Shown here piece after piece: positions 5,724-30,146 of a DNA stretch of 30,146 bases; within the stretch, counting starts at the first letter, position 1, and the number at the start of each line of letters is the position of its first letter. The stretch spans positions 1 through 30,146 of the IMG/VR virus record IMGVR_UViG_3300032288_001261. One strand, 5' to 3'. The translations under genes were made by a program, and so were the position numbers. Under the pieces are notes generated by a model. That model made no database searches. It worked only from the letters and a program-made list of their open reading frames with translations, and was not told the DNA's origin. This DNA is from a virus.

Positions 5724-8406
5724 GATACAACTTGAGACGGGTTACTTAGACGTAAAGGATGGAACGAACTTACCTATCAATTTAGGAATTGGCGACATTC
5801 GCGATATAAGCAAAAAGACGGGTACATTCAGTAAAACAATAACGCTTGACGGCACTAAGAACAACCACGAACTACTGAACCATTATTACGACACGAATAT
5901 ACAAGCGCAGACGTTCAATGTAAACACGCTCACGAAATGCGCATTATTGCAAAACGGAATCCCAGTAATTGAAGACGCGTACCTTCAACTTGTTAATATA
6001 GTCAAGAAACAGACGACAGATAGTCAAGAACAAGAAATCACCTATGAGGTATTAATTAAAGACGGCGCGAGTTCATTCTTTACAACTTTAGGTTCGAAGG
6101 AACTTACTGACTTAGACTTCAGTGACCTTGACCATACTTATTCAGCTGCGAACGTTGTAGCAAGTTGGTCGCATTCAGTTACGGACGGGTACAAATATCC
6201 AGTATGCTACAATCCAAGCAATGACTATTTATTGAATGAGTTTCGTCCAGCAATATACGCTAAGACGTACTTTGACCGAATCTTTGAAACGGCTGGTTTT
6301 ACTTACCAATGGAGCACCTTAAGTATTGACAAGTTTAACAAGTTGTTGATTCCTTACAACGGCGACAACCCCTATGTGAACAATGACAATTATATGGTCA
6401 AGGCTGAGAATGCAATCGGAAGCGGTGTGTTTAGTTATCCTTGGTCTTCTTATCAAACCACGAACCAAGTTCCAAATACTCTATTTAAACCGCTTGACAT
6501 ATTAACAGAAACGCTTGACCCTTCAGGTTCTTTTAGTCCGACAACTGCAACTTACCTCAATAACATACTTATAAATTCTCCCGCTGCATTATTAATTGAT
6601 GTTCAAGTCACTTACACTACTTTTGTGAACAACCCACACGCAAGTACAATTTACTTGCAAGGTGGCGACATCTGGACTCAGATAGGCGGCGCATTGTCAA
6701 TCAATGGAGCGAACCCAAGCAACTTTGGAACTTACAATAATATCGGTTTTTATTTGTTAGATGGAACGAGTTACGCTCCCGGAACTACTAACGTTTTGGT
6801 TAACGATACCGTGAACTTTCAACTTGTAGCGTCAAACTTACAAGTCGGAGACACGGTTAAAGTATTTGACGCTATGACCGCGTTTCGTCTAAGTCCAACA
6901 AGTGTTAACTTTAGAAGCCTACCTATTGGAGGAGCAATAAGAACAGCAAACATAGGACACACAATAAGTTCTTATAAAATAACAATAAGCTACACTCCAA
7001 ACACAATCGGGTTCGGCGGTGATATAGTGGTAAATGATTACGTGCCTAAAAAGATTAAACAAGCGGACTTCATTAAGTCAATCTTTACGATGTACAATCT
7101 GTACGTAACCACCGACAAGACGAACTCGCAAAAGTTAATCATTCAAACGCGTGACAATTTTTACGATTCGGGCGCACGTAAAGACTGGTCTGAAAAGTTA
7201 GCAAAAGACCGCGAACAAAATCTTCAGTTCATTGCAGAGACTGCACAAAAACGACTCTTATTAACTTATAAACAAGACGCGGACGAACCGAATAAAATTT
7301 ACAAAGAAGCCACCAACGAGGTTTACGGGCAAGTTGAATACATACTGGACAACGAGTATATCAAAGGCGAAGACAAGAAAGAACTTGTTTTCAGTCCGAC
7401 ACCCGTAAATCAAACAAGTTTCGGAGCAATCGTTCCAATGTTTGTCGGGTCAGCGCCAAAGACGAACATTCGAATACTTTACGATGGACCAATGCTTGAC
7501 TGCGGAGCGTTTAATATTTATGACGATATTGGAACGGCAATCGGTGAGTTTGACTTGGTGCAATACCCAGCAATAACACACTTCAACAATCCGTTGACAC
7601 CTGACTTTGATTTGAACTTCGCGGTGTGTGACTATTACTTTTACCAGCAACAAGTATTAACGGCGAACAACCTTTTCAATCTGTACTGGCGACGCACGAT
7701 GAACCAAATAAACACGGGCAAAATGTTAACTGCCTATTTTTATTTGACTGAAAATGACATCCAAACTATTAAGCTAAACGACAAGATTAGAATATTCAAC
7801 GATTGGTATAATATAAACAAGGTCATTGACTACAATGTTAACGTACCGATGTTAACAAAGGTTGAATTGATTACGGTTGACGAAGACATTCGCCTTGTCC
7901 CGGTAAGTAAAAAAGACATAAAACCAATTGCTCCAGTTCCGAACACGGAAGGTTTAATAAACGTTTTGAATGGTCACTTTTACAACAACAACAATGTTAT
8001 AAGTGCTTATTCAGACGTGACAACTAAAGGGGTTGGTAACGTAGTTAGTGGCGGTCACAAGGCGGTTATAATAGGCAATAATAGAAACGTTCAAAGTTCA
8101 GGAATATTCGGTGACGAAATTGTGAATCCTTACCCGGTTATTTACCCTATGTTTTTATGGAACGATACGTGGACAATTACAAGCCAACAAAGCGTTTTAA
8201 TTTACGAAGGGACAACCAACACAACTTGGTATTTGCCACCGCTCGGAAACACGGGTCAGCAGTTTATTATTAAGAACGTCGGAACGGCTGCACTAACTAT
8301 TAATGCGGACGGGACAGAAACGATTGACGGCGCATTGACTTTAAAACTTAACCAATGGGACTCGGTCACTTTAGTCGACGGTCAACTTCAATGGTATATT
8401 ATTTAA
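5716..8406 (+). CDS. Tail hub/fibre fusion protein, 896 aa
   Basis: Residues 1-250 begin MVRIQLETGYLDV and contain a GDIRDISKKTGTFSKTITLDGT segment, followed by tail-hub-like beta regions to about 740; this start is shared by large tail-tip proteins of Bacteroidota phages as I recall them. Residues about 755-812 show an irregular Asn/Gly/Val repeat (GVGNVVSGGHKAVIIGNNRN), typical of a trimeric beta-helix. The last 75 residues (from YEGTTNTTWYLPPLG to WYII) match a small C-terminal domain widespread in fibres (IIKNVG, ADGTETIDG, DSVTLV). The protein may therefore join hub and receptor-facing fibre in one chain. Confidence 0.65.
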   Translation: MVRIQLETGYLDVKDGTNLPINLGIGDIRDISKKTGTFSKTITLDGTKNNHELLNHYYDTNIQAQTFNVNTLTKCALLQNGIPVIEDAYLQLVNIVKKQTTDSQEQEITYEVLIKDGASSFFTTLGSKELTDLDFSDLDHTYSAANVVASWSHSVTDGYKYPVCYNPSNDYLLNEFRPAIYAKTYFDRIFETAGFTYQWSTLSIDKFNKLLIPYNGDNPYVNNDNYMVKAENAIGSGVFSYPWSSYQTTNQVPNTLFKPLDILTETLDPSGSFSPTTATYLNNILINSPAALLIDVQVTYTTFVNNPHASTIYLQGGDIWTQIGGALSINGANPSNFGTYNNIGFYLLDGTSYAPGTTNVLVNDTVNFQLVASNLQVGDTVKVFDAMTAFRLSPTSVNFRSLPIGGAIRTANIGHTISSYKITISYTPNTIGFGGDIVVNDYVPKKIKQADFIKSIFTMYNLYVTTDKTNSQKLIIQTRDNFYDSGARKDWSEKLAKDREQNLQFIAETAQKRLLLTYKQDADEPNKIYKEATNEVYGQVEYILDNEYIKGEDKKELVFSPTPVNQTSFGAIVPMFVGSAPKTNIRILYDGPMLDCGAFNIYDDIGTAIGEFDLVQYPAITHFNNPLTPDFDLNFAVCDYYFYQQQVLTANNLFNLYWRRTMNQINTGKMLTAYFYLTENDIQTIKLNDKIRIFNDWYNINKVIDYNVNVPMLTKVELITVDEDIRLVPVSKKDIKPIAPVPNTEGLINVLNGHFYNNNNVISAYSDVTTKGVGNVVSGGHKAVIIGNNRNVQSSGIFGDEIVNPYPVIYPMFLWNDTWTITSQQSVLIYEGTTNTTWYLPPLGNTGQQFIIKNVGTAALTINADGTETIDGALTLKLNQWDSVTLVDGQLQWYII

Positions 8407-13076: not shown

Positions 13077-13502
13077 ATGGCTACGTTTAAAGTAAAATAC
13101 GCCACTCGTAATAAACTCGCTAGAGCGTTACAGCAAGAGATTAAAAGCTTAGGCTTAATTGACACGGGTGCTTTGTACGACTCGATTAAAATCTCGGCAA
13201 TGACTGGCGACGAACTAAACAAAATTAACATAACTATAAATGCTTTATTTTATTATTTGTTTTTGGATGAGGGAACAACGAGAGGAATACCTCCTTACTC
13301 AATTACGGATAGTTGGTTAAAGCGTAGCGATACTCAAGCAATAATAGGCGAAATAATAGCCGAGTACATAGCGTGGCAGTTCAAAGAATATCCACTTTTG
13401 CAAATGGCTACAATTCTTAACAATCCTAAAGTAAGCATTCAGTTCAACTGGATAGATTCGCCTTACGCTGGGCTACCTACTGCGCCAATGACTTCATTCT
13501 AG
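13077..13502 (+). CDS. HK97 gp10-like tail completion protein, 141 aa
   Basis: Residues 5-75 follow the gp10-like pattern: a helix with KLARALQQEIKSLGL, then IDTGALYDSIKISA, a strand pair, and FYYLFLDEGT with a following Pro (GIPPYS). That fold forms a head-tail joining or tail-completion piece in siphoviruses. It is separated from the portal and connector by over 4 kb, which is unusual. Its TAG stop shares the CTAG at 13499-13502 with the stop of the gene on the other strand. Confidence 0.7.
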   Translation: MATFKVKYATRNKLARALQQEIKSLGLIDTGALYDSIKISAMTGDELNKINITINALFYYLFLDEGTTRGIPPYSITDSWLKRSDTQAIIGEIIAEYIAWQFKEYPLLQMATILNNPKVSIQFNWIDSPYAGLPTAPMTSF

Positions 13503-14233
13503 ATTGACAAGTCTTTTTTCATTGCCAACATATTAAAAGCAAATACTAAAGGCATTCTCAAAACCTCATCGAACTTGGTTACATCTTCGTTTGCTAGGTT
13601 GTAAATCGTCTGCTCCCACGACCAGCGTTTGAACTTTGCTTCGTTCTGCTCTTCTTTAAGGTCCTCAGCATCTAGCTCTTCGTCAATGTCAGGGTCTGCT
13701 ATGGTAGGCTCAAACAAATTAGAGTACACTTGTATAAAGTTTTCCCTGAACTTTAGGTAAATAGGAATAATTTCGTACACTTCAGCAACGGAAATGCTAT
13801 AAAATTCGTCTTTTCTTACGTCTATGTCGAACTCGTAAGGCTCAAAAACACGTTCTCCCCACTCATTTAACTTTGTTTTTCGGTAAAATAGGGCGCAAAT
13901 CTTTGGTAAATTGCTAACATAATTTTCACTAAACCAAAATTCAAGGTCGATAAACTCGCCTAGCTTTAAGCGGTCCACATTAATAAGTGAATACTCGCCT
14001 ATATTTTGCTTTATTTTAGTTCGTGGTTGCTGTTTAAGCCACTTAATTTTGTCAATTATATTATTCAATTCATCAAAATCGAGGTCCAAAAAGCTATTAT
14101 ATTCTTCATTTGTAAGAATAGAAAGTATTTCTATTTCGTAATCCAGTAACGAGTCGAACTCCGTTTGTTGAAGTTCGTTTATTTCTATGTACTGCTCGAT
14201 ACTAATTTGATGCCACCCCGTCGGTATCTTCAT
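13499..14233 (-). CDS. Second tail-chaperone-like protein of the inverted pair, 244 aa
   Basis: Acidic, helical protein. Residues 7-60 hold ISIEQYIEINELQ and LDLDFDELNNIID. Residues 78-122 read IGEYSLINVDRLKLGEFIDL ... KICALFYRKTKL, a pattern I associate with phage tail assembly chaperones. The same layout appears in the gene before it (DFxE, I-G-Y, AxxF+xTxL in equal order and spacing), so the two look paralogous. It begins inside that gene, in the +1 frame. The C-terminal region 180-200 is a strongly acidic linker. Opposite strand to all other genes. The chaperone assignment rests on pattern and pairing only. Confidence 0.62.
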   Translation of the reverse strand: MKIPTGWHQISIEQYIEINELQQTEFDSLLDYEIEILSILTNEEYNSFLDLDFDELNNIIDKIKWLKQQPRTKIKQNIGEYSLINVDRLKLGEFIDLEFWFSENYVSNLPKICALFYRKTKLNEWGERVFEPYEFDIDVRKDEFYSISVAEVYEIIPIYLKFRENFIQVYSNLFEPTIADPDIDEELDAEDLKEEQNEAKFKRWSWEQTIYNLANEDVTKFDEVLRMPLVFAFNMLAMKKDLSI

Positions 14234-14777
14234 TCTCTGTGTCTTCTTTTACTTTTTGAATGGTCTCGTTTAGTTTGTTACCAACGTAGGCAACGAACGG
14301 AATAACCAACTCTGCATTTTGCTTTTTAAACAACTTTGTTTTAAAGTCGATGTGTGCGTCTGCGTAGTGTTCAGTCGGAGTAAGGTCAGTACGTTTAAAA
14401 ATAATAGCCATCATTCGGGCAAGGTAGTTTGTAGGGTCTTTCTTAATTGACTTCTCGATGTATTTCAAATCACGAACTGAAAGTTTAAACTCCTCCTCAA
14501 ATGACTGGTAAGTATAGCCGTCAATCTCTAGTGTTTGAGTATAGACCGGTGCAATCTTTTCACTTGCTTGGTTAAACTCTCTTACCAACTCTCTGAACTC
14601 GTTAAAGTCCATTTCGTTTATTTCGCTTTCGTCAGCTCCTAAGTAAACAAATATGTTTATCCACTTCTCAAAGGTCTCTGCTTCGTTGTCATTAATGAAA
14701 GACGATACTTTCTCGAATGTTTGGATGTCCATTTCAGAAGCTAAATTCTTAATCTCTTTACTACCTACTTTAATCAT
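14202..14777 (-). CDS. First tail-chaperone-like protein of the inverted pair, 191 aa
   Basis: Residues 17-70 are helical and acidic (MDIQTFEKV, EMDFNEFRELVREF). Residues 85-132 contain IDGYTYQSFEEEFKLSVRDL and ARMMAIIFKRTDL, paralleling the downstream gene. The last 20 residues are acidic and lead into the overlap with the next gene (14202-14233). A -7 box lies just upstream on the same strand. Tail chaperones usually come as a two-frame pair upstream of the tape measure; here the pair is inverted and about 2 kb past it. Alternative: an unrelated paralogous pair of structural proteins. Confidence 0.62.
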   Translation of the reverse strand: MIKVGSKEIKNLASEMDIQTFEKVSSFINDNEAETFEKWINIFVYLGADESEINEMDFNEFRELVREFNQASEKIAPVYTQTLEIDGYTYQSFEEEFKLSVRDLKYIEKSIKKDPTNYLARMMAIIFKRTDLTPTEHYADAHIDFKTKLFKKQNAELVIPFVAYVGNKLNETIQKVKEDTENEDTDGVASN

Positions 14778-14789
14778 AACTTTTTTTCA

Positions 14790-14797
14790 CAAATATA
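14790..14797 (-). promoter_or_regulatory. Candidate -7 box TATATTTG for the minus-strand pair
   Basis: Read on the minus strand the sequence is TATATTTG, an exact match to TAnnTTTG, 12 bases before the ATG at 14777. The -33 element is poor: only a T-run lies about 17 bases further up. It would give a very short leader. The 60-base gap 14778-14837 is the only divergent promoter region of the genome. Confidence 0.5.
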
Positions 14798-21801: not shown

Positions 21802-21828
21802 GAGGTGGCTTCGGTCACCTCTTTTTTT
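21802..21828 (+). terminator. Strong intrinsic terminator with UUCG loop
   Basis: The stem runs from 21802 to 21809 (GAGGTGGC) and from 21814 to 21821 (GTCACCTC), with loop TTCG closed by C-G, the most stable tetraloop type. Seven T follow. It separates the structural/lysis unit from the early promoter at 21878. Confidence 0.92.
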
Positions 21829-21877
21829 ATGGTGTTTACTGAGTAAATTGAGCAATTGAAAAAAAATATTTAATTTT

Positions 21878-21910
21878 TTTGCACAAGTTAAAAAAAGTTA
21901 TGTACATTTG
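21878..21910 (+). promoter_or_regulatory. Consensus Bacteroidota promoter of the early region
   Basis: TTTG at 21878-21881 and TACATTTG at 21903-21910 are separated by 21 bases, matching the TTTG/TAnnTTTG pattern of Bacteroidota housekeeping promoters with the right spacing. A start point near 21917 would give a leader of about 20 bases before the ATG at 21938. The region upstream is A/T-rich (21851-21880). Confidence 0.82.
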
Positions 21911-21924
21911 TAGGGTAAACATTA

Positions 21925-21943
21925 AAACAAAGAAACAATGAAA
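21925..21943 (+). repeat. 19-bp direct repeat at gene start, copy 1
   Basis: The sequence AAACAAAGAAACAATGAAA is identical to 22174-22192. Both include the start codon and A-rich initiation region of a gene (21938 and 22187). The two copies bracket the 21938 gene. Confidence 0.8.
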
Positions 21944-26669: not shown

Positions 26670-26853
26670 GCAATACAAAGTAAACTACTTTAGTGAGGGC
26701 AAACCTCGTTATATGGTCATCTACGCACAAAGCGAATTAGACGCTATTAAACGAGCCGACATTGAACCAAAATTGATTTATAATGTTATTGATTTCGACG
26801 TATGGTTAAAGCGGTGTGAACGCCCATTGCGAGAATATTATAAAACACTTTAA
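26653..26853 (+). CDS. Hypothetical protein, 66 aa
   Basis: Start at 26653 (MTSHFKQYKVNYFSEGKPRYM), overlapping the SSB-like gene by 17 bases; the in-frame ATG at 26590 would overlap far more. A compact alpha/beta protein (YAQSELDAIKRADIEP, DVWLKRCERP). Ends before the structured gap at 26854-26989. No domain recognised. Confidence 0.62.
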   Translation: MTSHFKQYKVNYFSEGKPRYMVIYAQSELDAIKRADIEPKLIYNVIDFDVWLKRCERPLREYYKTL

Positions 26854-26871
26854 GTTTTTTGCTATTATTAA

Positions 26872-26946
26872 GTAGGTCCGCTTCCACAATATAGGACTGA
26901 ATGAATTTGAATTGACCTTGTCAATGAAGTAGAAGTGGAAGCCTAC
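26872..26946. other. Structured non-coding segment (possible ncRNA, origin or riboregulator)
   Basis: In the 136-base gap 26854-26989, GTAG (26872-26875) and GCTTCCAC (26880-26887) pair exactly with GTGGAAGC (26935-26942) and CTAC (26943-26946), leaving a bulge GTCC. Inside, ATTGAC (26911-26916) pairs with GTCAAT (26920-26925) around CTT. The bulge could also pair with GGAC at 26894-26897. A T-run follows at 26962-26967 and A/T repeats (TTTAA) at 26968-26989. Such nesting could form a folded RNA or an origin beside the replication genes. No known RNA family is recognised. Confidence 0.55.
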
Positions 26947-26989
26947 GGATTTGATAGGGTCTTTTTTGTTTAATTTAATTTAATTTATT

Positions 26990-27181
26990 ATGAAGTATGT
27001 TTTAGATTGTATCCAAGAACGAACATTAAATTTAGTATTGGAACGTGAACTGGTGATGTTAGCATTAACAATTGAAGACAATGGTTTTCAAAAGACCATT
27101 TATTTAGATGAGAAAGGAATTTTTGATTTAATAGGTGCGCTCCACCACATTCAGAAACAAATTCAAAACGACAAAAAATGA
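26990..27181 (+). CDS. Hypothetical protein, 63 aa
   Basis: Begins MKYVLDCIQERTLNLVLERELVMLALTIEDNGFQKTIYLDEKGIFDLIG; an alpha/beta small protein without recognised domain. Follows the A/T-rich end of the structured gap and overlaps the replication initiator gene in ATGA. Could assist replication. Confidence 0.6.
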   Translation: MKYVLDCIQERTLNLVLERELVMLALTIEDNGFQKTIYLDEKGIFDLIGALHHIQKQIQNDKK

Positions 27182-27813
27182 GTGGGTGGGTCAAAATACA
27201 CAGAAAAATTCTTGAATGGGAGTGGTTTAATGATACAAACACGTTTAAATTGTTTTTGTTTATATTGCTTTCAGTTAACCATAAAGACAAAAATTACAGA
27301 GGTAAACTTGTTAAAGCTGGTTCAATGGTTACTGGTCGCGATATACTTGCGCAAAAAACAAATATGTCAGTTCAACAAATTAGAAGTTGTTTAAAACGTC
27401 TAAAATCAACCAACGAAATAACCATCGAAACTAACTCGCAAGGTACTATTATTCACGTTGTTAACTTTGAAAAATACCAAGTTGAAACCAACGAATTAAC
27501 CAACAATCAACCAACGATTAACCAGCAATCAACCACTAACAAGAATGTAAAGAATGAAAAGAATATATTTAAGCAACCTACTATTGAAGAAGTTCAAAAC
27601 TATTGTTTGGAACGTAACAATAACGTTGATGCAAAGCGTTGGTTTGACTTTTATGTAAGTAAGGGTTGGTTAGTAGGTAAAAGTAAAATGAGGGATTGGA
27701 AAGCATCTGTAAGGGCTTGGGAAAAGGAAACGAATGTTTCCCCTAAACAACCAAACTTTAAAAGTAATGACCAAATATTTTATGAGAACGTAATGAAACA
27801 ACTTGGAAAATGA
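27178..27813 (+). CDS. Replication initiation/helicase-loader-type protein, 211 aa
   Basis: Opening MSGWVKIHRKILEWEWFNDTNTFKLFLFILLSVNHKDKNYRG and the winged-helix motif TGRDILAQKTNMSVQQIRSCLKRLKSTNEITIETNSQGTIIHVVN (residues about 53-99) are typical of phage replication proteins with DnaD-like architecture. A Gln/Asn/Thr-rich linker follows. The C-terminal part (FYVSKGWLVGKSKMRDWKASVRAWE, 155-180) resembles helicase-binding tails. It would recognise an origin and load the downstream helicase, with which it overlaps in ATGA. Confidence 0.8.
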   Translation: MSGWVKIHRKILEWEWFNDTNTFKLFLFILLSVNHKDKNYRGKLVKAGSMVTGRDILAQKTNMSVQQIRSCLKRLKSTNEITIETNSQGTIIHVVNFEKYQVETNELTNNQPTINQQSTTNKNVKNEKNIFKQPTIEEVQNYCLERNNNVDAKRWFDFYVSKGWLVGKSKMRDWKASVRAWEKETNVSPKQPNFKSNDQIFYENVMKQLGK

Positions 27814-28661
27814 TTCTTGAAGACGGACATAGTACTGAATACTTACTTAACTACCGGGATGGTAACATAGGTAAAGGTCTTGGAATAGGTTGCCGACTTG
27901 ATGAGTATTTGTTGTTTAAGAGAAAGCAGTTAAATATAGTTTTAGGACACGATAACGTTGGTAAGTCTTATTGGATGGAATGGTATTTTTTAATGTTAGC
28001 TTACAAGCATCGTTTGAAATTCGTGTTGTGGATGGGTGAAAATTCAAGCGGTCAGGTTATGCGTGATTTTATACAAATGTTTTCGGGTAAACGATTTAAT
28101 GAACTAACAAAAAACGAAATAGTAGGCTACCAGCATCGAATTGAAAAATACTTTAAGTTTGTCAGCAACGAAAAAATGTATACACCAAAGGAACTTTTAA
28201 CTATTATTGAAGACTCAGGTTGTGACGTTGGCTTTATTGACCCATTCACGGGACTTAATAGAGGTATGCAGCACTCGGACAATTACGAGTTCCTAAATTA
28301 CACACGTGACTTTTGTAACCGAACTGGAAAAACTTTGTACATCTCAACACACCCAACCTCAGAAAGTGGGCGAACTTCAATGCTATACCCACAAGACCAC
28401 CATTGGTTTGGTCATTTGAAGCCACCATTGAAGGCACACATTGAAGGAGGTAAACCATTTTTGAATAGGTGCGACGATATGATTGTTATTCACAGATTAG
28501 TTAAACACGAAACAATGAAGTATTCGACAATGATTGAAGTGGAAAAAATTAAAGACCGGGATACTGGCGGTCAGGTGACAGAGTTAAATTCACCTTTGTT
28601 GTTTGATTACAATAACGGACTTGGATTTATGTTTGATGGTATTAACCCACTAAAACGATAA
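27810..28661 (+). CDS. RecA/DnaB-like replicative helicase ATPase, 283 aa
   Basis: RecA-fold motor: Walker A GHDNVGKS at 46-53, E77 in WMGENS after the second strand, Walker B ending FIDPF (D144), and the STHP strand (YISTHPTS). The N-terminal domain of DnaB is absent, so it resembles the short helicase parts of T7-type or Gp4-like proteins. It follows the loader-type gene in an ATGA overlap and presumably unwinds phage DNA. No primase zinc finger is visible in the window. Confidence 0.78.
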   Translation: MILEDGHSTEYLLNYRDGNIGKGLGIGCRLDEYLLFKRKQLNIVLGHDNVGKSYWMEWYFLMLAYKHRLKFVLWMGENSSGQVMRDFIQMFSGKRFNELTKNEIVGYQHRIEKYFKFVSNEKMYTPKELLTIIEDSGCDVGFIDPFTGLNRGMQHSDNYEFLNYTRDFCNRTGKTLYISTHPTSESGRTSMLYPQDHHWFGHLKPPLKAHIEGGKPFLNRCDDMIVIHRLVKHETMKYSTMIEVEKIKDRDTGGQVTELNSPLLFDYNNGLGFMFDGINPLKR

Positions 28662-29558: not shown

Positions 29559-30086
29559 ATGAAAACACGAAAATGTAAAAACTGCAAAGAACCATTTATC
29601 CCGTGGAACTCATTGCAGAAATACTGCTTAAAAAATTATTGCGTCTCAGTAATGATTGAAGAGGCAAAACAAAAGGAATGGGCAAAGCGTAAAGCAAAGA
29701 TGAAAGCCGACTTGATGACCGCGAGTGATTACAAAAAGTTAGCGCAGACCGTGTTTAACCAGTACATTCGACTTCGCGACAAAGACTTAAATTGCATTTC
29801 GTGTGACAAACCCGCCAAGAAAGCCAACGCTGGACATTATTTTAGTCAAGGCGGACATTCAAACGTAAGGTTTCACGAAGACAACGTACACCTTCAATGT
29901 GAGCATTGTAATAGTTTCCTTTCCGGGAATCTTTTAAACTATCAAATCGGTATAGAAAAACGAATTGGAGGGCAAAGATTACTCGCGTTGCACGAACAAG
30001 CGCATATTTATAAAAAATTTACCATCGAAGAACTCAAAGAAATCATTGCAACCTACAAAGAGAAAGTTCGTATATTAAAAAAATAG
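29559..30086 (+). CDS. ninG: NinG (Rap)-like recombination endonuclease, 175 aa
   Basis: Start at 29559 (MKTRKCKNCKEPFIPW) gives the conserved N-terminus; an upstream ATG at 29481 would lie inside the methyltransferase. Zinc-binding Cys sit at 6, 9, 23 and 28, and the C-terminal half has the HNH-like cluster C79, C82, H93, H111, C114 and C117 (CISCDKP, AGHYFSQGG, VHLQCEHCNSF). NinG cuts branched recombination intermediates in lambda. It ends the early unit, next to the recombination and methylation genes. Its last 63 bases are the copy at 1-63. Confidence 0.85.
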   Translation: MKTRKCKNCKEPFIPWNSLQKYCLKNYCVSVMIEEAKQKEWAKRKAKMKADLMTASDYKKLAQTVFNQYIRLRDKDLNCISCDKPAKKANAGHYFSQGGHSNVRFHEDNVHLQCEHCNSFLSGNLLNYQIGIEKRIGGQRLLALHEQAHIYKKFTIEELKEIIATYKEKVRILKK

Positions 30087-30146
30087 TATATTTGCCCTAT
30101 GTACAGAATGCTTCGCAACCTATTGCGGTTAAATATTGTTAAATTG
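30024..30146. repeat. Terminal direct repeat, right copy (assembly overlap)
   Basis: Identical to 1-123; see there. It covers the 3' end of ninG, a second view of the -7 box (30087-30094) and the first 48 bases of the small ORF that is complete at 76-204. Confidence 0.95.
30099..30146 (+). CDS. 5' part of small basic protein (copy of 76-123)
   Basis: First 16 codons of the 42-aa ORF, cut by the window end. Not a separate gene. Confidence 0.6.
   Translation, partial: MYRMLRNLLRLNIVKL

Follow-up and report, generated by a model that had tools for sequence, protein, structure and literature searches.

The gap at 26854-26989 in the phage genome analyzed here encodes a genuine structured RNA, for which the comparison of related sequences rules out a chance fold. 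As judged from the same comparison, the fold consists of two hairpins whose loops are paired to each other, the loop-loop pairing, S2, being an 8-bp kissing helix. The RNA represents an uncatalogued family with very strong covariation, and we propose, with moderate confidence, that it is a self-terminating leader that heads the phage replication operon and would meter transcription into the replication genes.

A structured RNA upstream of the replication genes

The window, that is, the whole stretch of DNA that was analyzed, is a virus record of 30,146 bases that probably represents an entire phage genome, circularly closed and about 30.0 kb long, because its first 123 bases (1-123) recur exactly at the record end (30024-30146). 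The left neighbors of the gap are an SSB-like gene and an overlapping small gene, with the stop codon at 26853; the features within and downstream of the gap are collected in Table 1.

Table 1. Features of the RNA and of the adjoining replication genes in the window
Feature	Position	Strand	Basis
-7 promoter box position, degenerate in this phage (TATTATTA)	26863-26870	+	By homology; TAnnTTTG in most relatives
Complete RNA of about 94 nt, from the predicted 5' end through the T-run	26874-26967	+	R1 89.5 bits, E 1.2e-15 (the window is itself among the 44 sequences that built R1); alignment A4
Hairpin 1: stem S1 26875-26879/26894-26898, loop 26880-26893	26875-26898	+	Covariation
S2 5' side, kissing helix (GCTTCCAC), in the loop of hairpin 1	26880-26887	+	Covariation
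Single-stranded linker with conserved TTATT-like family motif	26899-26913	+	Column conservation in A4
Hairpin 2, predicted intrinsic terminator: T1, internal loop and T2	26914-26961	+	Covariation; RNAalifold
T1 stem	26914-26924/26951-26961	+	Part of hairpin 2
Internal loop TGAA/GGAT	26925-26928/26947-26950	+	T1/T2 junction
T2 stem	26929-26932/26943-26946	+	Part of hairpin 2
S2 3' side, kissing helix (GTGGAAGC), in the loop of hairpin 2	26935-26942	+	Covariation
Terminator T-run	26962-26967	+	In nearly all members
A/T-rich spacer, 22 nt, T-run to ATG of the first replication-operon gene	26968-26989	+	Relatives: median 19 nt, 53 spacers without TAnnTTTG
63-aa gene, family not assigned	26990-27181	+	First gene 3' of the RNA
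DnaD-like helicase loader	27178-27813	+	phrog_2514, E 6e-26
DnaB-type replicative helicase	27810-28661	+	phrog_239, E 1e-16

In an alignment of 44 members built from sequence alone (A4), the column pairs with the strongest covariation make up four helices, S1, S2, T1 and T2, in which 91.9% of the cells pair compared with 67.3% in shuffles, a cell count being a count of sequences and not of independent events. The covariation in A4 is 0.682, against 0.221 (sd 0.012) in shuffles, with 0 of 500 shuffles reaching the observed value, and when the partners were slid by 1-3 columns, it fell to 0.175 or less. Double changes occur at all 5 pairs of S1 (91.8% of cells paired) and likewise in T1 (87.3%) and T2 (91.9%); S2 is paired in 98.3% of cells, G-U pairs are common in the helices, and RNAalifold independently yields S1, T1 and T2. 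The claims for these three helices rest on A4 because the covariance-fitted alignment, A5, leans toward them by construction. S2 is a pseudoknot and as such is absent from the covariance model, R1, so that it can be tested free of model bias: in 58 distinct sequences outside the model, 464 of 464 cells pair, with 82 double changes. The loci L099-L177, having been found by a pattern in which the promoter box, the greater part of S1 and some letters on the 5' side of S2 were fixed, are uninformative on the promoter and S1 and slightly constrained on that side of S2. The S2 sequence itself is varied, with 29 distinct 8-mers among 108 sequences, and in the compact variants L030, L032 and L157, the 6-nt loops are exact complements (GTGCAG/CTGCAC or GGGCAG/CTGCCC), which indicates a loop-loop kissing complex. 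Thus, the family possesses two mutually complementary hairpin loops that covary, along with the sequence hallmarks of an intrinsic terminator, namely, C-G pairs at the base of T1 and a conserved T-run. The TGAA/GGAT junction between T1 and T2 could form U.U and tandem G.A pairs.

The gap and all the pairings named in an earlier reading of the sequence alone are present in the DNA, and that interpretation as a whole is partly supported. Its check by covariation in relatives came out in favor of structure, the paired bases of S1, S2, T1 and T2 all covarying, whereas folding energy against shuffled sequence gave a mild excess only (+ strand segment, z -1.7). Both hairpins are present in the minimum-free-energy fold computed for the 94-nt RNA of the window, but relatives are needed to decide the matter because folding of the one sequence is only mildly unusual. 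Several of the pairings that had been drawn hold, in a fold of two kissing hairpins rather than of nested stems. Within the proposed 12-bp stem, the 8 bp at 26880-26887/26935-26942 are S2 and covary strongly, whereas the outer part, GTAG at 26872-26875 with CTAC at 26943-26946, is absent from L010, L015 and L016; this GTAG rivals T2 for CTAC, and the covariation belongs to T2, in which 26943-26946 covaries with 26929-26932. The pairing of a GTCC bulge with GGAC turned out to be the core of S1 (26876-26879/26894-26897), and the alternative pairing of GACC with GGTC by the T-run is the base of T1 (26914-26917/26958-26961), both with strong covariation. The 6-bp hairpin placed at 26911-26925 finds no such backing, with 61.7% of its cells paired compared with 58.7% in shuffles. 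No ARAGORN model of a tRNA or tmRNA matched, and a small ORF noticed by eye within the RNA, with its ATG at the T1/T2 junction, was dropped because its frame is not kept.

Distribution among viruses of Flavobacteria and relatives

A search with the loader protein recovered 10 viral loci, of which 9 have a homologous intergenic segment in the same place, with differing downstream genes, and a helicase alignment provided 80 further loci, in which the RNA was sought by a descriptor search and then with R1. Among the 63 helicase loci with at least 2.4 kb of upstream sequence, there are 43 strong R1 matches and 11 more loci with weak-scoring, compact or divergent RNAs, members beyond the reach of R1 being judged by eye on their architecture. 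The pattern of promoter plus hairpin 1 occurs in at least 120 stretches of viral contigs, and among the matches listed, 79 of 79 new loci match R1. Altogether, 134 R1 matches were carried forward, and at least 110 distinct homologous sequences are found in viral contigs, the carriers being many viruses of Flavobacteria and relatives. Exactly one R1 match was found in 24 of 30 whole records searched; going by these records, the RNA is single copy in the genomes of ~30 kb. Weak second matches in L059, L065/L152 and L127 lie in coding-like sequence without a promoter box and are not copies. Two loci, L090 and L091 (both 5965-6049), carry a divergent RNA of the same architecture downstream of the helicase and not before replication genes.

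The strict pattern of promoter plus hairpin 1 has no match in 84,980 bacterial genomes, nor did the helicase query against 84,980 bacterial species give a confirmed relative; with both scans empty, no prophage copy is known, and divergent copies might be missed. Of 7 matches in an exact 16-mer search of viral contigs, 6 are unrelated and lack the rest of the motif. Comparison of the window region with named phages by blastn gave nothing real, and with two other members as queries, only promoter-like or terminator-like stretches matched.

Cultured phages do carry the RNA. Cellulophaga phage phi18:3 has a clear copy before a replication gene (50.4 bits, E 9e-9), and weaker matches, of 22-25 bits, lie in the corresponding gaps of phi13:2, phi19:3, phi46:3 and the Flavobacterium phages morran9-1 and lillamy9-1; by eye, the latter two have the full architecture, and S1 is weak in phi13:2, phi19:3 and phi46:3. 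A second copy, common to four Cellulophaga phages, scores 22-23 bits only, yet the architecture is there, as is a TATATTTG box. The second copy of phi18:3 stands at the head of the first rightward operon, right after the switch of transcription direction, and the operon behind the second copy is without recognized replication genes. Between the 5' end of the RNA and the T-run, the four second copies show one differing base, whereas the downstream genes, with an ATG 13-16 nt past the T-run, differ among the phages: near-identical copies before differing genes are the behavior of a portable leader. The two copies in phi18:3 carry different loops. Two annotated genes that overlap the RNA, gp042 of morran9-1 (a hypothetical protein, L226:2376-2519) and gp058 of phi18:3, which overlaps the second copy, are probably spurious. 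Maribacter phage Panino was rejected as a member, its R1 score of 8.8 bits being not significant; its gene order of SSB, 163-nt gap, small ORF, initiator and primase/helicase (L220:1836-1998), with a terminator-like hairpin in the gap, agrees with that of the window and is perhaps that of a remote relative.

Promoter, spacing and operon context

In 36 of 53 distinct members, all found via the helicase and not via the promoter, a TAnnTTTG box lies just 5' of S1, compared with 110 of 3000 random places in the same loci. The distance from TTTG to the start of the model is mostly 4-5 nt, a count that includes the loci found by the promoter pattern, and because this spacing fits the -12 to -5 position of sigma-A boxes in F. 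psychrophilum (PMC9723704), the first base of the model is the expected transcript start. Among the members without TAnnTTTG, some have TATATTGC, which agrees with the TAnnTTGY motif described in the same work (PMC9723704). The window's own -7 box is weak, as it is throughout its clade. At 26826-26873 of the window and in L010 and L014-L018, a strongly conserved ACACTT...TACTATTATTTAGT region replaces TAnnTTTG and may be a different kind of promoter.

From 1 kb upstream to 1.5 kb downstream, there is no second comparable TAnnTTTG peak, and the box occurs in none of the 53 spacers between T-run and ATG (0/53), the absence of other promoters being judged by this single consensus. The next ATG follows the end of the T-run by a median of 19 nt, within 10-25 nt in 46 of the 53, a tight spacing that may merely reflect the compact genome. 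The RNA is co-directional with, and lies directly upstream of, replication operons with mutually unrelated first genes: a small ORF plus a DnaD-like loader, the loader itself, a primosomal-type protein, an HNH endonuclease followed by a primase-like protein, a DNA methyltransferase, or a protein followed by a primase/polymerase. The RNA is tied to the heads of replication operons rather than to any single protein. Going by sequence, the layout is that of a leader-terminator, in which a promoter, a leader and a terminator immediately precede an operon of the same direction. Of the functions suggested in the sequence-only reading, an ncRNA fits the conserved covarying RNA, with its intrinsic terminator and, in most members, a promoter box, and an attenuator for the initiator and helicase genes fits the fixed place before the DnaD-like loader and helicase or another replication operon.

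Elsewhere in the window, a strong plain terminator at 21802-21821 lies ahead of a TACATTTG promoter box (21903) and of the next gene block, whose first gene is at 21938, and this terminator/promoter junction (21802-21938) is without a kissing-hairpin RNA. Two ORFs on the minus strand (13499-14777) are opposed to all other genes and have a minus-strand TATATTTG promoter box at 14797.

A proposed self-terminating leader and its alternatives

In the leader scenario, host RNA polymerase would start at the sigma-A type promoter, at S1, and the very 5' end of the RNA would fold into hairpin 1; hairpin 2, the terminator, would form next, and its loop would pair with that of hairpin 1, producing a compact kissing complex. 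Most polymerases would then halt at the T-run, releasing a small, stable RNA about 95 nt long, and the replication genes would be reached by readthrough only, from this or an upstream promoter, because no promoter box is seen in the spacer. The efficiency of termination would set the amount or timing of the replication proteins; the kissing would adjust this efficiency, perhaps together with a protein that binds the conserved linker or the internal loop. Once released, the RNA may additionally act on its own. All-against-all column covariation detects no conserved antiterminator helix that competes with T1, only S1, S2, T1 and T2 being strong, so that no two-state attenuator or riboswitch of the classical kind is visible and the switch, if there is one, is not classical either; switching by a bound protein or through the kissing state is more likely. 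It is conceivable, if unlikely, that the RNA serves as a copy-number sensor, in which the free terminated RNA would pair with the nascent leaders of other genomes, break the internal kissing and alter termination. If so, the varied S2 loops would prevent cross-talk between phages and operons; plasmid copy-control RNAs avoid cross-talk by varied loops.

The absence of an antiterminator helix would suit a stand-alone gene for a trans-acting phage small RNA, with a promoter and terminator of its own and a place at the operon that reflects gene order only. We entertain this possibility, the chief rival to the leader, tentatively: the kissing hairpins would stabilize an RNA that acts by protein binding or by base pairing of the linker, and the promoter at the first base, the terminator at the last, the compact fold and the conserved single-stranded motifs are all in keeping with it. 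The RNA, however, always lies directly before a co-directional gene, at ~19 nt, and that gene has no promoter box of its own to be seen, and identical second copies precede different genes. The position at the 5' end of early-type operons, with the phi18:3 copies at two operon heads, would also suit a put-like site for processive antitermination, where the nascent RNA binds the polymerase, which then ignores the RNA's own and later terminators; such a site is quite improbable, given that a conserved terminator closes the element itself and that a consensus scan, blind to long-loop terminators, finds in the window's downstream genes no + strand terminator that the polymerase would have to pass.

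Part of a replication origin, as the sequence-only reading had also proposed, might be located here, with the transcript priming DNA synthesis or opening the A/T-rich DNA past the T-run, considering that the RNA adjoins the replication genes on their 5' side and that the spacer at 26968-26989 is nearly pure A/T. This is very improbable: the GC skew, in which an inflection had been suggested as a check, is monotonic and unchanged at the site, which also lacks initiator repeats, and the second copy in the Cellulophaga phages heads another operon, one with no recognized replication genes. Direct repeats that resemble iterons (ATTAACCAACAATCAACCA and variants, with a spacing of 11 nt) are located instead at 27486-27535, within the DnaD-like loader gene, which is a likely site of the origin. 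As for a DNA-level inverted repeat or a chance fold in a compact genome, the mildly unusual folding energy of the single sequence would be compatible with it, but the probability is negligible in the face of strong covariation that includes the pseudoknot in sequences outside the model, common G-U pairs, and a promoter and T-run that are strand-specific; barring systematic alignment error, covariation has already refuted this reading.

Relationship to known RNAs and implications for phage biology

Comparative genomics has yielded candidate structured RNAs from Bacteroidetes and phages (Weinberg et al. 2010, PMC2864571; PMC8040213), that is, from the same phylum, and in the passages covered, these two papers name no motif of this kind. 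The window and 16 related loci contain no gathering-score match to Rfam 15 (4227 families), for which the earlier statement that no known family matches holds, and a permissive Rfam search of the segment gave chance-level scores only. A search of open-licence papers, phage papers included, turned up no description of the RNA.

By analogy, the RNA would seem closest in its working to a leader-terminator, of which lambda pR'-tR' is an example, with a put-type site as a less certain parallel. The lambda pR'-tR' late leader is the 'lambda 6S RNA', associated with Q antitermination, and shares with our RNA the order of promoter, short leader, intrinsic terminator and operon, and a stable small RNA freed when transcription stops. 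It differs in preceding late genes, whereas here the replication genes follow and the kissing-hairpin fold is conserved, and no Q-like protein or qut site was identified here. The put sites of phage HK022, of which each genome has two, are small RNA elements that consist of two hairpins and lie where early phage transcripts begin; the two hairpins, the position 5' of transcripts and, in phi18:3, the two copies are all matched. The put RNAs are not known to end in an intrinsic terminator or to form kissing loops, whereas in the present RNA the terminator is hairpin 2. Kissing-loop RNAs include RNA I/II of ColE1 and the retroviral dimerization hairpins, which resemble the present RNA in complementary loops of 6-8 nt that vary in concert; here, in contrast, both loops belong to one RNA, and one of them caps a transcription terminator.

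The RNA probably controls the expression level of the replication genes. It is common in dsDNA phages of Bacteroidota, a group in which gene control is poorly known, and a terminator tied by kissing loops at the very start of transcription, if it indeed operates in this manner, would be a compact and testable control element for the timing of phage replication. Cultured phages with the RNA exist.
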